Below, piece by piece: positions 32,196-38,798 of a stretch of DNA of 64,000 bases. The notes beneath the pieces were generated by a model. The model was given only the letters and a program-made list of their open reading frames with translations. It had not been told where the DNA came from and did no database searches. The position numbers were made by a program, and so were the translations under genes. The DNA comes from Sedimentisphaerales bacterium (GTDB taxonomy: Bacteria; Planctomycetota; Phycisphaerae; Sedimentisphaerales; SM23-30), in contig JANQJS010000055.1 of NCBI GenBank assembly GCA_028281535.1, positions 1 through 64,000 on the forward strand, in the 5' to 3' direction. Numbering within the stretch: the first letter of the stretch is position 1; every line of letters begins with the position of its first letter.

Positions 32196-33254
32196 ATGTG
32201 GTCCAGAGACATTATTAGCGGAAAACAAAAAGGAGCAGCAGCCTCATTGAGTAGGTTGCTGTTTTCTTTTTTATCTGTCGTTTATTCTTTGATCATTCGG
32301 TGTCGTAATTGCTGTTATGATTTGGGCATTTTCTCGTCTCAAAAAATCTCCATTCCTGTGATTAGTATTGGAAATATTACTGTTGGTGGTACCGGTAAAA
32401 CCCCCATGGTGATTTGGGTTTCTCGTCAACTTCAACGAATGGGGAAAAAAGTTGCCTTGGTCAGCCGCGGTTATAAATCTCAAGAAACTGGCGAGAATGA
32501 CGAAATGGTCATATTGAAGAATGCTTTGCCAAATATTATCTTAATTTCGAATTCCAATCGAGTTGAAGGTGGCAATGAGGCTATAAAGCAGGGGGCTGAT
32601 ATTGTAGTGCTCGATGATGGTATGCAACATCGACGCATATCCAGAGATCTAAATATTGTAATGTTAGATGCAACCTGTCCGTTTGGTTATGATTGGATTT
32701 TACCACGTGGTTTATTGCGAGAGCCATTGAGGGGATTAAAGCGATCTGATGCGATTGTGCTTTCGCGAAGCGATCTTGTTTCTGAAAATGACAAACAGTC
32801 TATCTATGATAAGATCAAATCACACATTTCAGATTCTTCTTTAGTGGTCGCTGAGAGTCAGCATCAGCCTGTTGGTTTGATAGATCAGCAGGGTGAAATA
32901 TTGGGTTTAGATGCGATTAACGGTAAAAATATTTTGGCTTTTTGTGGTATTGGGCACCCCGATGGATTTATTGAAACATTGAAAAAATATGGGGCCAATG
33001 TCATTGAATCACGCTATTTTGCCGATCATTATCATTATCGGACCTTGGATGTTGAACAGGTCAACCAGTTGTCGCGAGATCATCAGGTAGATTTCATCGT
33101 GACGACTGAGAAAGATTGGGTTAAAATAGAGCAACTGTCTGGAGTAGCTAGAGATAAGATTCTTTGGTTGAAAATTGAGTTAGACATATCCTCTGGACAG
33201 GAGCAATTATTGGAGCAAATAAACCATTTATGGCCAAACAGTATGACCCCATAA
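32196..33254 (+). CDS. lpxK: Tetraacyldisaccharide 4'-kinase
   Basis: Phosphorylates the 4'-position of the lipid A disaccharide at the inner membrane, 352 residues. The N-terminal hydrophobic segment is followed by Walker A GNITVGGTGKTP, DDGMQHRRISRDLNIVMLD and LPRGLLREP, all LpxK-characteristic. It opens the LPS-core operon and overlaps the next gene by 25 bp. Its presence means this organism makes lipid A. Confidence 0.95.
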   Translation: MWSRDIISGKQKGAAASLSRLLFSFLSVVYSLIIRCRNCCYDLGIFSSQKISIPVISIGNITVGGTGKTPMVIWVSRQLQRMGKKVALVSRGYKSQETGENDEMVILKNALPNIILISNSNRVEGGNEAIKQGADIVVLDDGMQHRRISRDLNIVMLDATCPFGYDWILPRGLLREPLRGLKRSDAIVLSRSDLVSENDKQSIYDKIKSHISDSSLVVAESQHQPVGLIDQQGEILGLDAINGKNILAFCGIGHPDGFIETLKKYGANVIESRYFADHYHYRTLDVEQVNQLSRDHQVDFIVTTEKDWVKIEQLSGVARDKILWLKIELDISSGQEQLLEQINHLWPNSMTP

Positions 33255-34174
33255 ATTTGGATGGGTTGAATACCTTTCCAACCCAACAGCGTCAGCATAA
33301 AGTTGATCTGTCGGCGGTTGCCAAGCTGCCGGAAAAAGATGCGTCGCTGGAAGAATTCTTTGCGAGTTTGCCACAGTTTCTTGGTGCTGAGCAGTTGCAT
33401 CAATTGGTAAAAGCTATGGCCAATGCGGTAAAGAAAAATCGTCCTATTATTTTTGCTATGGGTGCCCATGTGATCAAAGTGGGTTGTGCTCCGATCATTA
33501 ATGATCTTATTGCGCGTGGCATCATCCATGGGGTGGTATTTAATGGTGCGGGTGGCATTCACGATTTTGAGATGGCTTGGCATGGCCAGACCAGCGAAGA
33601 TGTGGGTGCCAATATTCACGATGGTCGATTTGGCATGACCCAGGAGGCCCCGGAAATTTTGTCCGCTGCTGCGAAATTAGGTAGTGAAAAAAGAATTGGT
33701 TTAGGTGCTGCTTTGGGTCAATTGATAAATGAACGTCAGTTACAAAATCGTGAGATGAGCATTCTGGCGACAGCGGATAAGTATAAGATCTTATCTGCTT
33801 TGCATGTGGCATTGGGAACTGATACCGTTCATATGCATGCTCAGACAAATGGTAAACTTATCGGTGATGCCTCGATGATAGATTTTCGTCGTGTATGCAA
33901 TGCCGTATCAGATTTAGGTGATGGTGGTGTTTGGGTGAATGTTGGCTCCGCCGTTGTATTACCTGAAGTTTTTCTGAAAGCGGTTTCAGTGGCAAGAAAT
34001 CTGGGAGCTAATTTGGATGACATGTATACTGCCAATCTCGATATGATACGTCATTATCGCGTTGAGCAAAATGTTCTATCTCGACCTGTGAAGCCGGGGC
34101 ATAGTTATTCTGTGATTGGGCATCATGAAATTTTGTTGCCACTGCTGCGAATGTGGCTTTTACAAAACATTTAG
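33230..34174 (+). CDS. Conserved protein in the LPS operon, deoxyhypusine synthase-like
   Basis: A 314-residue cytoplasmic protein with no signal or membrane span. Motifs AMGAHVIKVG, NGAGGIHDFEMAW, GQTSEDVGANIHDG and a long middle helix set loosely recall the NAD-binding deoxyhypusine synthase fold, but the catalytic-lysine region of true deoxyhypusine synthase is not evident to me. Bacteria lack eIF5A, so another reaction is expected. It overlaps lpxK by 25 bp and is 11 bp before hldE, which places it firmly in LPS-core or heptose metabolism. Function unknown. Confidence 0.6.
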   Translation: MAKQYDPINLDGLNTFPTQQRQHKVDLSAVAKLPEKDASLEEFFASLPQFLGAEQLHQLVKAMANAVKKNRPIIFAMGAHVIKVGCAPIINDLIARGIIHGVVFNGAGGIHDFEMAWHGQTSEDVGANIHDGRFGMTQEAPEILSAAAKLGSEKRIGLGAALGQLINERQLQNREMSILATADKYKILSALHVALGTDTVHMHAQTNGKLIGDASMIDFRRVCNAVSDLGDGGVWVNVGSAVVLPEVFLKAVSVARNLGANLDDMYTANLDMIRHYRVEQNVLSRPVKPGHSYSVIGHHEILLPLLRMWLLQNI

Positions 34175-34185
34175 GATCTGCTTTT

Positions 34186-35715
34186 ATGCATGAACGTTTA
34201 TTAAAAATCATCAAAGAGTTAGAAACACCTCGCGTTTTACTGGTGGGTGATTTTATGTTGGATCGCTATCTTTATGGCTATACCGATCGTATTTCACCTG
34301 AAGCACCTGTGATGGTACTCAATGTTTCTGAGCGTCAACAGCGACCTGGTGGTGCGGGTTCTGTTGCGATGGACTTAAGTGTCCTTGGAGCTCAAGTCTC
34401 CTGTTTAGGGGTTGTTGGCGAAGATGATGCAGGGGGAGAATTGCTAACCACTTTGTCAGATATTGGTGGTGTCGATATTGATGGGCTTATTACCGTCACT
34501 GATCGCAGTACAACATGCAAAGAACGTATCATTGGTTTGGCTCAGCATCGTCATCAGCAGCAACTCATGCGAATTGATGAAGAGAGCACACATGAATTAT
34601 CACCTGGTGATCAGAAACGTTTGAAGAAACGTATGGAAGAGATGCTGGATGATTGCGATGTGGTTTGTATAGAAGATTATAACAAAGGTGTACTGAAAGG
34701 TGGCTTTTGTAAAGAGGTCATCCAGCTAGCAAAATTGAAAGGCAAAAAAGTGATTGTCGATCCCGCTGCGGTGGATGATTATAGCCGTTATGAAGGTGCC
34801 TGGCTGGTGAAACCTAATCGTCGTGAGTTATCGTTGGCAACTGGTATTGCAATGGGCGATCAAGAAGGTTGGCAGAAAGCTTGCCAGCAAATCGCCGTTT
34901 CTTGCAAGATTGATAATGTGGTTGTGACCTTGGATAAGCAAGGAGCTTTTCTTTACGAAAGTTCGGGTGATCATCACCTTGTCCCTACACGTGCTCGTGA
35001 TGTTTACGATGTCACAGGTGCGGGTGATATGGTCCTCGCAACACTAGGTGTTTTTGTTGGCGGGAAAGTTTCTGGTTTTGATCCACCGACGTTACCTGAG
35101 GTTGTTTATTTAGCCAATGTTGCTGGTGGACTGGAAGTGGAACGGTATGGATGTGTGGGTATCAGCCGCGAAGAGATGATGGCAGAATTGGTGCGTGAAG
35201 GTCGCATCGAAACCGGCAAGCTTCGCAGTCTTGAGGCCTTATTGCAGGAAATTAACTGGCAGCGAAGTGATGATACCAACATTGTTTTTACCAATGGCTG
35301 TTTTGATATTTTACATTCGGGTCATATTGGTTTATTAAAATTTGCGAAAGAACAGGGCGATATTTTAATCGTAGCGATCAATAGTGATCGGTCTGTTACC
35401 GCTTTAAAAGGTCCCGGTCGTCCAATTAATAATGAACAGGAACGTGCAAATATTTTAGGTGCCCTTGAAGTGGTAGACTATGTCGTCATTTTTGATGAAG
35501 AAACGCCGCTTAAATTAATAGAGGCCATCACACCCAATACTTTGATTAAAGGTGCCGATTGGACTGGCAACGTCGTTGGTCAGGAATGGGTCGAATCGCA
35601 TGGTGGCCAGGTGGTGATGATGCCATTGGCTAAAGGTAAGAGTACCACAAATATTATTGAACGTGTGATAGAAAAGAGTCACAAGGAAAACGTCAAGTCA
35701 ACAGATCTGTCATGA
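34186..35715 (+). CDS. hldE: Bifunctional heptose 7-phosphate kinase / heptose 1-phosphate adenylyltransferase
   Basis: Makes ADP-heptose for the LPS core, 509 residues. The N-terminal PfkB/ribokinase-type kinase (about 1-320; RPGGAGSVAMDL, DVTGAGDMVLATLG with the catalytic Asp) is joined to a C-terminal nucleotidyltransferase (about 350-490; TNGCFDILHSGH with HSGH, and a KGKSTTNII end). ATG 34186 is used because AGGA lies 9 nt before it; the in-frame GTG at 34153 would overlap the previous gene. It overlaps the next gene by 4 bp (ATGA). Confidence 0.95.
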   Translation: MHERLLKIIKELETPRVLLVGDFMLDRYLYGYTDRISPEAPVMVLNVSERQQRPGGAGSVAMDLSVLGAQVSCLGVVGEDDAGGELLTTLSDIGGVDIDGLITVTDRSTTCKERIIGLAQHRHQQQLMRIDEESTHELSPGDQKRLKKRMEEMLDDCDVVCIEDYNKGVLKGGFCKEVIQLAKLKGKKVIVDPAAVDDYSRYEGAWLVKPNRRELSLATGIAMGDQEGWQKACQQIAVSCKIDNVVVTLDKQGAFLYESSGDHHLVPTRARDVYDVTGAGDMVLATLGVFVGGKVSGFDPPTLPEVVYLANVAGGLEVERYGCVGISREEMMAELVREGRIETGKLRSLEALLQEINWQRSDDTNIVFTNGCFDILHSGHIGLLKFAKEQGDILIVAINSDRSVTALKGPGRPINNEQERANILGALEVVDYVVIFDEETPLKLIEAITPNTLIKGADWTGNVVGQEWVESHGGQVVMMPLAKGKSTTNIIERVIEKSHKENVKSTDLS

Positions 35716-36776
35716 GTAAACCAGCTGTATTTTTAGATCGCGATGGAACGCTGATTGAGCATTATGAGTACCTGACTGATCCGTCAGATGTTCAGATGAT
35801 GCCCAGTGTTGCGCCTGCGATGAAATTATTACGCGATCGAGGATTTTTACTCGTCATGATTTCGAATCAATCCGCTGTGGCTCGTGGCATCATAACAGAA
35901 AAAAAACTCATTGAAATTCATGATACACTCAAAGTTCAGATGTCTGAACAGAATGTCTATTTGGATAAAATGTATTACTGTCCTTATCATCCTGAAGCGG
36001 CTGTCGAAAAATATCGTAAGGATAGCGAACTGCGTAAACCCAAGCCAGGGATGCTTCACTTGGCGGCCCAGGAATTGGATATCGATTTGTCACGTAGTTG
36101 GATGGTGGGAGATGATGATCGCGATGTATTAGCGGGTAAAGCTGCGAAGTGTCGTACGATTTTATTAGAGTCCTATGGCTCTGTTGGTGTGCAGCGCGGA
36201 AGTAGTGAACCTGATTTTAAAGCAGTCAATTTACAGGAGGCAGCGAATTTGATTGTTCGTTATACCACGTCTCGGCGAATTCCTCCTGCAGAACAGGAAG
36301 AAACATCCGAGGAGATTACGACACAATCTAATCATCAAGGGGCAGGGCCAATGGGTAATCATGAAAATACAGAACATACACTGTCGACGCATCGACAAGA
36401 ATTAGACACAGAGTCTTATGAAAATGAATCGTTGGTTGTGAATCGAGATGCTTCAGGAATAGATGAGGCTGAGGTCGATGAACCTATCGAGCTAAGGGAC
36501 CCAGAGCTTCAAGAAGAACTGTTAAATGAACGTCAGTTGCTTCAACAGATTTTACGAGAATTGAAAAGTGCCAATCGCGAGAGCAACTATTCAGATTTTT
36601 CCATTGCGAACTTGTTTGCAGGAATCATCCAGATCGTTGTCGTCTTTTTTATGGTACTGGCATTCATGTTTGGTAATGGTGCTGAGCCAAAGCCGGAATC
36701 TGTTCAAACCTGTTTGTTGTGGGCTGGTGTGTTTCAGCTATTAACCATGACGTTGCTATTAATTCATAAACAGTAG
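35712..36776 (+). CDS. GmhB-like D,D-heptose 1,7-bisphosphate phosphatase fused to a membrane tail
   Basis: A HAD phosphatase of the HisB/GmhB family (about residues 1-185; FLDRDGTLIEH nucleophile motif, ISNQSAVARG, GDDDRDVLAG) carrying an unusual extension of about 170 residues. The extension is acidic and Gln/Glu-rich, then ends in two membrane spans (about 300-320 and 334-350). The usual zinc site of GmhB (CPHH...CDCRKP) is altered: CPYHP remains, but the second Cys pair is replaced by DSELRKP. The operon position after hldE supports the heptose pathway. Anchoring to the membrane is inference. Confidence 0.82.
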   Translation: MSKPAVFLDRDGTLIEHYEYLTDPSDVQMMPSVAPAMKLLRDRGFLLVMISNQSAVARGIITEKKLIEIHDTLKVQMSEQNVYLDKMYYCPYHPEAAVEKYRKDSELRKPKPGMLHLAAQELDIDLSRSWMVGDDDRDVLAGKAAKCRTILLESYGSVGVQRGSSEPDFKAVNLQEAANLIVRYTTSRRIPPAEQEETSEEITTQSNHQGAGPMGNHENTEHTLSTHRQELDTESYENESLVVNRDASGIDEAEVDEPIELRDPELQEELLNERQLLQQILRELKSANRESNYSDFSIANLFAGIIQIVVVFFMVLAFMFGNGAEPKPESVQTCLLWAGVFQLLTMTLLLIHKQ

Positions 36777-36827: not shown

Positions 36828-38798
36828 ATGAATGACATTCCCGGCAAACTTTTAGTCGTGCTGCCAAATCCTATGGGAGATGCTATTCTTTCAGGGCCTG
36901 CTCTAAAGCACCTTCGAGATCACTTGCCTGAGACGCATATCACACTTTTGGGAAATAAATCTAATCTGGAAATTCTTAAAGGTGCAGGTTTTTCAGATGA
37001 GATCATAGATTATGGTGATTACAAGCTCTCTGGCTTGAATATTATTAAGACTGCTAAATGGTTAAATGCATTTCAATTTGATGCTGTTGTATTGTTAACC
37101 AATTCTTTTCGCACTGCGATACTCGTAAAGTTAGCAAAAATCCCTCAACGTATTGGTTATAATCGTGATGGTCGCGGGTTCCTGCTAACACATGCTGTAA
37201 ATCCTATTAAGTTCGGAAAATCGTATGTGCCGATCTCTGCGTTGGATTACTACGGATTTTTAATGGATCAAACGTTAGGGTGTTATCATATTGAACATAC
37301 ATCTTTTTTCGATAAACCCAAAGCAATGTCACTGACAACATCTGATTTGGATAAGGAAAAGATAGATCAAGTTATTAAGGGGTGGGACCTATCTGAAAAT
37401 GATCGAATAATTGTTATGGTCCCTGGCGGCGCTTTTGGTCCTAGCAAGTTATGGCCCGCCGAACGTTTTTCTCAATTAGCAGATCGATTCGTTGCGGATG
37501 GAAATAAGGTGATTTTGTTATGTGCACCGAATGAACTGGAAAAAAGCATCTGCCATTCCATTATGTCAAAATCGCAATCCCCATTGTTGAACACATTAGA
37601 GGCCAATCTTAACTTGGGTGGTGTTAAAGAATTGATCCGTCGGAGTGCCTTGGTCGTGAGTAATGATACCGGGCCGTGTCATATTGCCGCGGCATTTGAT
37701 GTTCCGCTTGTGACGCTGTTTGGGCCAACGGATCCTCGCTGGACTGCGACAGGTTATTCGAAGGAAACTCGCCTTCGAGTTAATGTGGAATGCGGTCCTT
37801 GCCAAAAGCCGCAGTGTATTACGGATCATCGTTGTTTACAGAGAATTGATGTTGAAAGAGTTTATCAGGCCGCATGTGAGCGATTGCAAAATTCGGCTGG
37901 AAGTATGTCGGACGAATTGAATCCTTTTTATCAATCGTATGATGAGTCGTTTATTCCATTGCCTGATAATCAGGGGGTAATTCATAAATCATTTTACTCT
38001 TTATTAAAATCGAATGGTCTAACAACCGTAGAAGATGTTTTTAATTATCGTGAAGGAAAAGCACTGGTTAAGCCAGGGCTTGGATCGCGTGAAAGGCTTC
38101 GAGTCGATTTGTCCGAGCAAAGGGATGGAGCGGTTCTATTTTTGAAGCGTTATGGAACGCCAAAAATTTCAGCGTTATTAAAAACGCTTCTTAGACAGCG
38201 AACTCATTTAGCGACAGCAGTTTATGATTTTAAAGGTTGTCTGGACCTTGGTCAGAATCATATTTCGGCCGCCCGGCCTATCGCATTAGGGTGCGAATAT
38301 AAAGGCTTGGGTGAAAAACGTAGTTTTGTTATGATTGAGCAGCTTCCTGAGGCGCAATCATTAGAGCGATTATTGCCTGAATGGGAGAAGAATAAGCAGC
38401 ACTATGATTTGTTGCAAGATAAGAAAGTTTTAATAGAGAAAGTCGCAGATCTGGTTCGCCGATTCCATAGCCATGGTTTTTATCATCGCGATTTATATTT
38501 GGCTCATATTTTTGTGTGTAAATTATCTAGTGGTGACAATCAACTTAGTTTAATTGATCTGCAGCGGGTTTTTCAGCCGATATACTTTAAGAGACGCTGG
38601 CTTGTGAAAGATTTGGCACAGCTCTATTATTCGAGCAAAGCCCATTTCTCAAATGCAGATATGATGCGATTTTTGCATCATTATTATGGCCAGAGAAAAT
38701 TGACAAGCGATCATAAATCGATTGTGCGATCAATTTGGGCCAAAGCTCAGCGGATTCAGCGGCATGATCGTAAACGACAAAAACGATTTAACAGGTAG
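36828..38798 (+). CDS. ADP-heptose:LPS heptosyltransferase (GT9) fused to WaaP-like LPS kinase
   Basis: A 656-residue bifunctional protein. The N-terminal part (about 1-355) is a GT9 heptosyltransferase (LVVLPNPMGDAILSGPAL, VPGGAFGPSKLWPAERF, VSNDTGPCHIAAAF, LFGPTDPRWT). The C-terminal part (about 390-656) is a WaaP/RfaP-type kinase with an eukaryotic-like kinase core: VLFLKRYG, HSHGFYHRDLYLAHIFV catalytic loop, LIDLQRVFQP. This joins heptose addition and core phosphorylation, two steps that are separate genes (waaF/waaC, waaP) in Enterobacteria. ATG 36828 has AGG about 14 nt upstream. Confidence 0.92.
   Translation: MNDIPGKLLVVLPNPMGDAILSGPALKHLRDHLPETHITLLGNKSNLEILKGAGFSDEIIDYGDYKLSGLNIIKTAKWLNAFQFDAVVLLTNSFRTAILVKLAKIPQRIGYNRDGRGFLLTHAVNPIKFGKSYVPISALDYYGFLMDQTLGCYHIEHTSFFDKPKAMSLTTSDLDKEKIDQVIKGWDLSENDRIIVMVPGGAFGPSKLWPAERFSQLADRFVADGNKVILLCAPNELEKSICHSIMSKSQSPLLNTLEANLNLGGVKELIRRSALVVSNDTGPCHIAAAFDVPLVTLFGPTDPRWTATGYSKETRLRVNVECGPCQKPQCITDHRCLQRIDVERVYQAACERLQNSAGSMSDELNPFYQSYDESFIPLPDNQGVIHKSFYSLLKSNGLTTVEDVFNYREGKALVKPGLGSRERLRVDLSEQRDGAVLFLKRYGTPKISALLKTLLRQRTHLATAVYDFKGCLDLGQNHISAARPIALGCEYKGLGEKRSFVMIEQLPEAQSLERLLPEWEKNKQHYDLLQDKKVLIEKVADLVRRFHSHGFYHRDLYLAHIFVCKLSSGDNQLSLIDLQRVFQPIYFKRRWLVKDLAQLYYSSKAHFSNADMMRFLHHYYGQRKLTSDHKSIVRSIWAKAQRIQRHDRKRQKRFNR

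Follow-up and report, generated by a model that had tools for sequence, protein, structure and literature searches.

The last step in the synthesis of ADP-L,D-heptose is ascribed to HldD, and genomes without hldD are read as lacking this step. The enzyme belongs to the extended short-chain dehydrogenase/reductase (SDR; NAD epimerase) family. It is described as an NAD+-dependent C6 epimerase, and ADP-heptoses as ligands of innate immune sensing (PMC10948575), and it is therefore useful to know which enzyme makes which epimer. The subject of this analysis is a gene located between lpxK and hldE in a lipopolysaccharide (LPS) operon of a Sedimentisphaerales bacterium of the phylum Planctomycetota (GenBank assembly GCA_028281535.1, contig JANQJS010000055.1, positions 1 to 64,000, the 64,000-nucleotide stretch called here the window). 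The gene codes for a member of the GSU2086 protein family, and we propose that this protein and its nearest relatives, designated clade A, probably do the job of HldD by transient oxidation on an unrelated fold, which would give a known step a new enzyme.

Geobacter sulfurreducens GSU2086, which has a name only and no function, belongs to the same family and likewise lies beside hldE and gmhA. The locus tags given in PMC5585712, GSU2085 (hldE), GSU2086, and GSU2087 (gmhA), are consecutive, and in the transposon sequencing (Tn-Seq) table of that source the three show similar defects on electrodes (-3.1, -3.2, and -3.7, respectively). Apart from this table, nothing tying the GSU2086 family or any protein resembling deoxyhypusine synthase (DHS) to heptose chemistry was found in the open-licence literature of PubMed Central, which likewise yielded no paper joining DHS with heptose or the nickel-pincer nucleotide with ornithine cyclodeaminase, and nothing relevant on replacement of the heptose epimerase. 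With 358 bits, against a cut-off of 250, and a match over profile positions 1-299 of 301, the window protein belongs at full length to NCBIfam NF052581, "GSU2086 family protein", a family already named but without an assigned function; its closest named relatives come from three planctomycete metagenome-assembled genomes (68-71% identity) and have the same neighbour genes. In the NCBIfam scan NF052581 is the sole match, and among the TIGR02197 (HldD) matches listed for the genome there is none at the position of the gene. The open frame has an ATG start and 314 codons for amino acids, shares 25 bp with lpxK, and stops 11 bp short of hldE, as the original prediction stated, if the in-frame ATG at 34186 is taken as the hldE start; the alternative GTG at 34153, used in the listed open reading frame, would make the two genes overlap. 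The identities of lpxK, hldE, gmhB, and a gene coding for a heptosyltransferase II/WaaP-type kinase fusion were confirmed with NCBIfam and Pfam (Table 1), and the claim that the product serves the heptose/LPS pathway is supported. The operon was also rightly said to contain no gmhA; hldD, which went unmentioned, is missing too, both from the operon and from the whole window genome (the best match to TIGR02197 has 129 bits, the cut-off being 274.6).

In a phylum sample of 292 Planctomycetota (completeness at least 85%), an NF052581 match over the cut-off is present in 141 genomes, far more conservation of the gene than chance would give. Clade A comprises proteins of the window type: in a tree of 128 family members, 96 from clade A form a single clade (support 0.977) with no others inside, while G216, labelled A, falls outside it. 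Assignment was made by best reference, replacing a split by match length (118 A, 20 B, three genomes with both A and hldD) which was dropped because members of ca. 920-930 nt, such as that of G173, proved to lie outside clade A. On the strength of match length or kinship, clade A was also taken to include 14 genomes that were unfetched and six whose matches were partial (56, 114, 178, 179, 308, and 316); G094, G109, and G216 were excluded. Among the 96 fetched clade A loci, many of them short or cut by contig ends, hldE lies within 0.7 kb in 58 and lpxK within 2.6 kb in 63; either gene is present in 86 and neither in 10.

The distributions of the clade A gene and hldD, the latter called by TIGR02197 at 1e-60 in the phylum sample or over the cut-off, are complementary. 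TIGR02197 is found in 74 and HldE-II in 253 genomes of the sample; the 253 hldE-bearing genomes comprise 109 with the clade A gene only, 72 with hldD only, two with both, and 70 with neither (p 3e-20, a value that ignores relatedness). Permutation within the six mixed families gives two co-occurrences against 11.8 expected, a number so low that it never arose in 200,000 permutations, and with these families collapsed to genera the exclusion has a p of 5e-6. In the family f39, studied at all completeness levels (81 genomes), 35 genomes carry the GSU2086-family gene (34 over the cut-off and a fragment in G347), 41 carry hldD, none has both, and five have neither (Fisher 6e-18), these being G339, G340, G355, G356, and G361 with listed completeness of 90, 85, 79, 67, and 72, respectively. 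Counted by genus (n=42), the figures are 14, 26, 0, and 2 (p 2e-9). Among 40 relatives of the window genome hldD exceeds the cut-off in 29, and the window's own family, f1, has five genomes of 13 with the clade A gene, six with hldD, none with both, and two with neither (p 0.016). As a control, a strong gmhA match and the clade A gene are distributed independently in the phylum sample (p 0.42). The missing step that tracks the GSU2086-family gene is that of hldD, not gmhA. For family members outside clade A no significant exclusion with hldD was found ([[2,16],[72,163]], p 0.11).

In f39 the two genes occupy the same slot. The order lpxK-lpxL-hldD-hldE was found in all six hldD loci fetched, from genomes picked because the tables put hldD beside hldE, and lpxK-lpxL-GSU2086-hldE in 7/7 GSU2086 loci with the same spacing; an eighth, L151, has lpxK, the GSU2086-family gene, and hldE with no lpxL match. 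The best hldE match is away from hldD in no fewer than three further genomes of f39 (G172, G205, and G244). In a tree of LpxK and HldE the six hldD genomes are monophyletic (0.96) and nested among the GSU2086 genomes (0.987), and the nesting therefore reads as one replacement of the GSU2086-family gene by hldD within the family.

The chief rival explanation is that the protein makes another change in a heptose or heptose phosphate (a different epimer, a keto or a deoxy form), so that a core built with another sugar makes L-glycero heptose and hldD unnecessary, in which case the exclusion would reflect two LPS types and not one step done twice. The surroundings of the wider family speak for it, since members outside clade A adjoin genes for heptose-kinase-like PfkB proteins, GmhA-like SIS isomerases, HAD phosphatases, or AGE-type epimerases, with several clusters having no adenylyltransferase or including the AGE epimerase, and so does the frequency of hldE with neither gene. 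The PfkB, SIS, and HAD neighbours outside clade A also count in favour of HldD replacement. However, in f39 hldD takes the identical slot with all neighbours kept, which is simplest if hldD and the GSU2086-family gene perform the same step, and in several families the exclusion persists when genera are counted. We regard this rival as possible, though rather unlikely.

Replacement of HldD has several observations to contend with. In f1 none of the six hldD loci fetched has lpxK or hldE beside it, and across f1 and its order hldD stands alone in 12/12 loci, a few of which may be truncated where a contig stops; the in-place swap is therefore seen in f39 only. The six remaining loci of this comparison are divided: hldD is found by hldE in G105, G123, and G151 and stands alone in G129, G183, and G231. 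In many f49 genomes the clade A gene lies by lpxK with hldE elsewhere. The 70 of 253 hldE-bearing genomes with neither gene mean that the HldD step is not always needed or that a third solution exists, and two genomes of the family f27, G055 and G155, have both genes, G155 being listed at 7% contamination. The Geobacter Tn-Seq values may include polar effects. Finally, relatives outside clade A occur in clusters that do not necessarily produce ADP-heptose, so that the substrate of the chemistry may be a sugar phosphate.

The fold of the protein differs from that of HldD, a SDR enzyme. An AlphaFold model built from an 81-sequence family alignment (mean predicted local distance difference test score, pLDDT, 96.2; predicted template modelling score, pTM, 0.91) has deoxyhypusine synthases as its top Foldseek matches (7cmc, E 3.8e-10, template modelling score 0.68). 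The likeness to DHS pointed out in the original prediction is thus borne out at the level of fold and profile, and the comparison with DHS structures suggested there recovers the DHS fold. VIA-align gives Z 21.5 with AgrE (220 residues, 2.9 A), Z 20.7 with the Pyrococcus horikoshii DHS 7cmc (269 residues, 3.8 A), and Z 19.6 with the LOR/SDH protein 3c2q. A profile search with an 83-row alignment retrieves the ArgZ/AgrE structures 6juy (1.1e-7) and 6lrf (3.1e-7) and then 3c2q (7.4e-5); the ArgZ/AgrE match is ca. 70 residues long, and the shared segment ends in HDxE. The alignment profile is needed for this, as phmmer with the single window protein against PDB gave one chance match only. The ornithine cyclodeaminase domain of ArgZ/AgrE and the LOR/SDH protein MMP1218 (TIGR00300, PF21570) are therefore the closest solved relatives by profile and fold, with HDxE in common, and 6lrg, a structure of this group, was solved with NAD+ and ornithine. 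Unlike them, the window protein has neither the arginine dihydrolase domain of ArgZ/AgrE nor the N-terminal LOR/SDH domain, and its context is that of sugar genes. HDFEMAW, the motif quoted in the original prediction, covers residues 111-117, and H111 and E114 are among the sixteen fully invariant positions of the 81-sequence alignment, which are occupied by H, E, D, K, N, and others.

The lysine of the WGK motif in DHS is catalytic and forms an enzyme-imine intermediate. An aminobutyl transferase of the DHS/homospermidine synthase kind (PF01916), modifying a protein, a polyamine, or an LPS sugar, would have the same fold, and hhalign against ten true planctomycete DHS homologues gives 97% probability over 275 columns, the NGAG segment of the window protein aligning with the TGAN segment of DHS. 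However, the column of the catalytic lysine is occupied by Asn281, with Asn in 99% of clade A, the match to Pfam DS is weak and below the cut-off (20.4 versus 27 bits, positions 12-82 of 288), and the context is one of heptose genes throughout, with nothing of eIF5A. Identity with DHS was rejected on account of the replaced lysine: the window protein is related to both DHS and ornithine cyclodeaminase but lacks the lysine of DHS, and an aminobutyl transferase is extremely unlikely. A non-catalytic subunit with an accessory or regulatory role in the heptose pathway, e.g., for HldE or LpxK, would suit the tight operon and the overlap with lpxK, but the sixteen invariant residues look catalytic and mutual exclusion with hldD is unexpected for an accessory factor, which leaves this explanation highly unlikely.

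DHS and the cyclodeaminase relatives oxidise their substrate with NAD+ and then return the hydride. In the favoured reading, replacement of HldD, the clade A protein would follow the logic of HldD, transient oxidation by a bound NAD(P)+, on the DHS/ornithine-cyclodeaminase fold. GmhA, HldE, and GmhB would make the D-glycero heptose, and the clade A protein, predicted to use NAD+ as cofactor and either ADP-heptose or a heptose phosphate as substrate, would oxidise C6; the 6-keto sugar would turn within the active site, the hydride would be handed back to its opposite face, and the presumed product, the L-glycero form, would go to the inner core of LPS. More broadly, it may well be that a nucleotide-sugar epimerase of this fold supplies L-glycero-D-manno-heptose in many Planctomycetota, and perhaps in Geobacter, instead of HldD, and that the wider family is a new class of NAD+-dependent (or nickel-pincer-nucleotide-dependent) sugar epimerases with heptose-kinase-like and GmhA-like partners. 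The nickel-pincer-nucleotide option comes from the names of distant relatives of the GSU2086 family. If this is true, a large part of the phylum, and perhaps some metal reducers, carry out the HldD step with an unrelated protein, NF052581 gains a function, and pathway annotation is to be corrected in hundreds of genomes. Moreover, the DHS/cyclodeaminase fold would be extended to sugar chemistry, and a non-homologous gene swap in place would have been caught inside one bacterial family.

The original prediction offered the gene as a substitute for gmhA, i.e., as a sedoheptulose 7-phosphate isomerase. The rival draws on the phylum sample, in which a gmhA match at 1e-14 is strong in 72, weak in 15, and absent in 25 of the 112 clade A genomes, as compared with 57, 11, and 4 of the 72 hldD-only genomes; when 24 of the 25 were rechecked at E 0.01, there was no match or only short ones (positions 71-133 inside longer open reading frames). 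The 25 are a real oddity, but they do not rescue the substitution, because the gene coexists with gmhA elsewhere: 87 of the 112 bearers, which the original prediction proposed to check for a lack of gmhA, have it. In at least seven genomes (G044, G049, G057, G060, G073, G159, and G187) gmhA lies within 5 kb of the GSU2086-family gene, and in Geobacter it has the next locus tag. A separate gmhA elsewhere in the genome, named in advance as evidence against the idea, exists in the window genome as P0002 (G000:C60), a divergent GmhA-like SIS protein of 226 aa (TIGR00441, 98.8 bits). Matched by eye, P0002 keeps H61, E65, Q175, and H183 (Neisseria numbering), given in PMC5387315 as the zinc-site residues of GmhA. 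The window protein has no TIGR00441 match in the NCBIfam scan. Strong similarity to a family of different function had been named as well; a defined family is indeed matched, but NF052581 is without a known function. To our knowledge, isomerisation of sedoheptulose 7-phosphate needs no NAD-type fold, a point also counted against replacement of GmhA, which we consider very unlikely.

In P0002 (L028:5927-7716) the profile match is broken up by an insertion, and downstream of its gene comes one for a tRNA-queuosine mannosyltransferase, not LPS genes; the match is split likewise in f1 genomes both with and without the clade A gene. The 24 rechecked genomes, which carry both hldE and the clade A gene but no SIS-type gmhA, are G040, G096, G111, G118, G125, G126, G128, G140, G142, G143, G147, G153, G160, G166, G168, G177, G188, G199, G201, G209, G217, G218, G226, and G230, and among them are all ten f58 genomes examined.

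Table 1. Genes and coding motifs of the heptose operon, numbered along the window
Feature	Position	Strand	Basis
lpxK, tetraacyldisaccharide 4'-kinase	32196..33254	+	TIGR00682 206 bits
Clade A member of the GSU2086 family, 314 aa; predicted to replace HldD with NAD+ as cofactor	33230..34174	+	NF052581 358 bits; fold model pLDDT 96; mutual exclusion with hldD
HDFE motif, residues 111-114, aligned to HDxE of ArgZ/AgrE ornithine cyclodeaminases	33560..33571	+	H111, E114 invariant
Invariant Lys250 codon	33977..33979	+	81-sequence alignment
Asn281 codon, aligned to the catalytic WGK lysine of true deoxyhypusine synthases	34070..34072	+	Asn in 99% of clade A
hldE, heptose-7-phosphate kinase/heptose-1-phosphate adenylyltransferase	34186..35715	+	NF008454 431 bits; TIGR02199 over cut-off
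gmhB, heptose-1,7-bisphosphate phosphatase with C-terminal extension	35712..36776	+	NF006506 137 bits
Heptosyltransferase II fused to WaaP/Kdo-type LPS kinase	36828..38798	+	TIGR02195 159 bits, over cut-off; PF06293

A search for matches to the GSU2086 family found none in phages and two in plasmids. One plasmid, pDCAR1 of Solidesulfovibrio carbinolicus (L030:8462-11540), codes for an HldE-like protein with reversed domains, the nucleotidyltransferase being first and the kinase second, which has a GSU2086 relative and also a GmhA-like SIS protein as neighbours, with genes of sialic-acid type close by. A conserved trio coding for an AGE-type 2-epimerase, a GSU2086 relative of the long form, and a PfkB kinase resembling HldE-I is found in G001, G026, and G022 (L026:181-3983, L022, and L024) and looks like an undescribed sugar pathway. 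In G160 (L115:6875-8628) a second, split HldE pair is located in the same operon, after hldE and in several loci gmhB; it consists of an HldE-I-like kinase (275 bits, below the cut-off of 345) and a separate HldE-II-like nucleotidyltransferase (174 bits). According to tblastn matches, such a pair is also present in L121, L090, L123, L083, L077, and L100.
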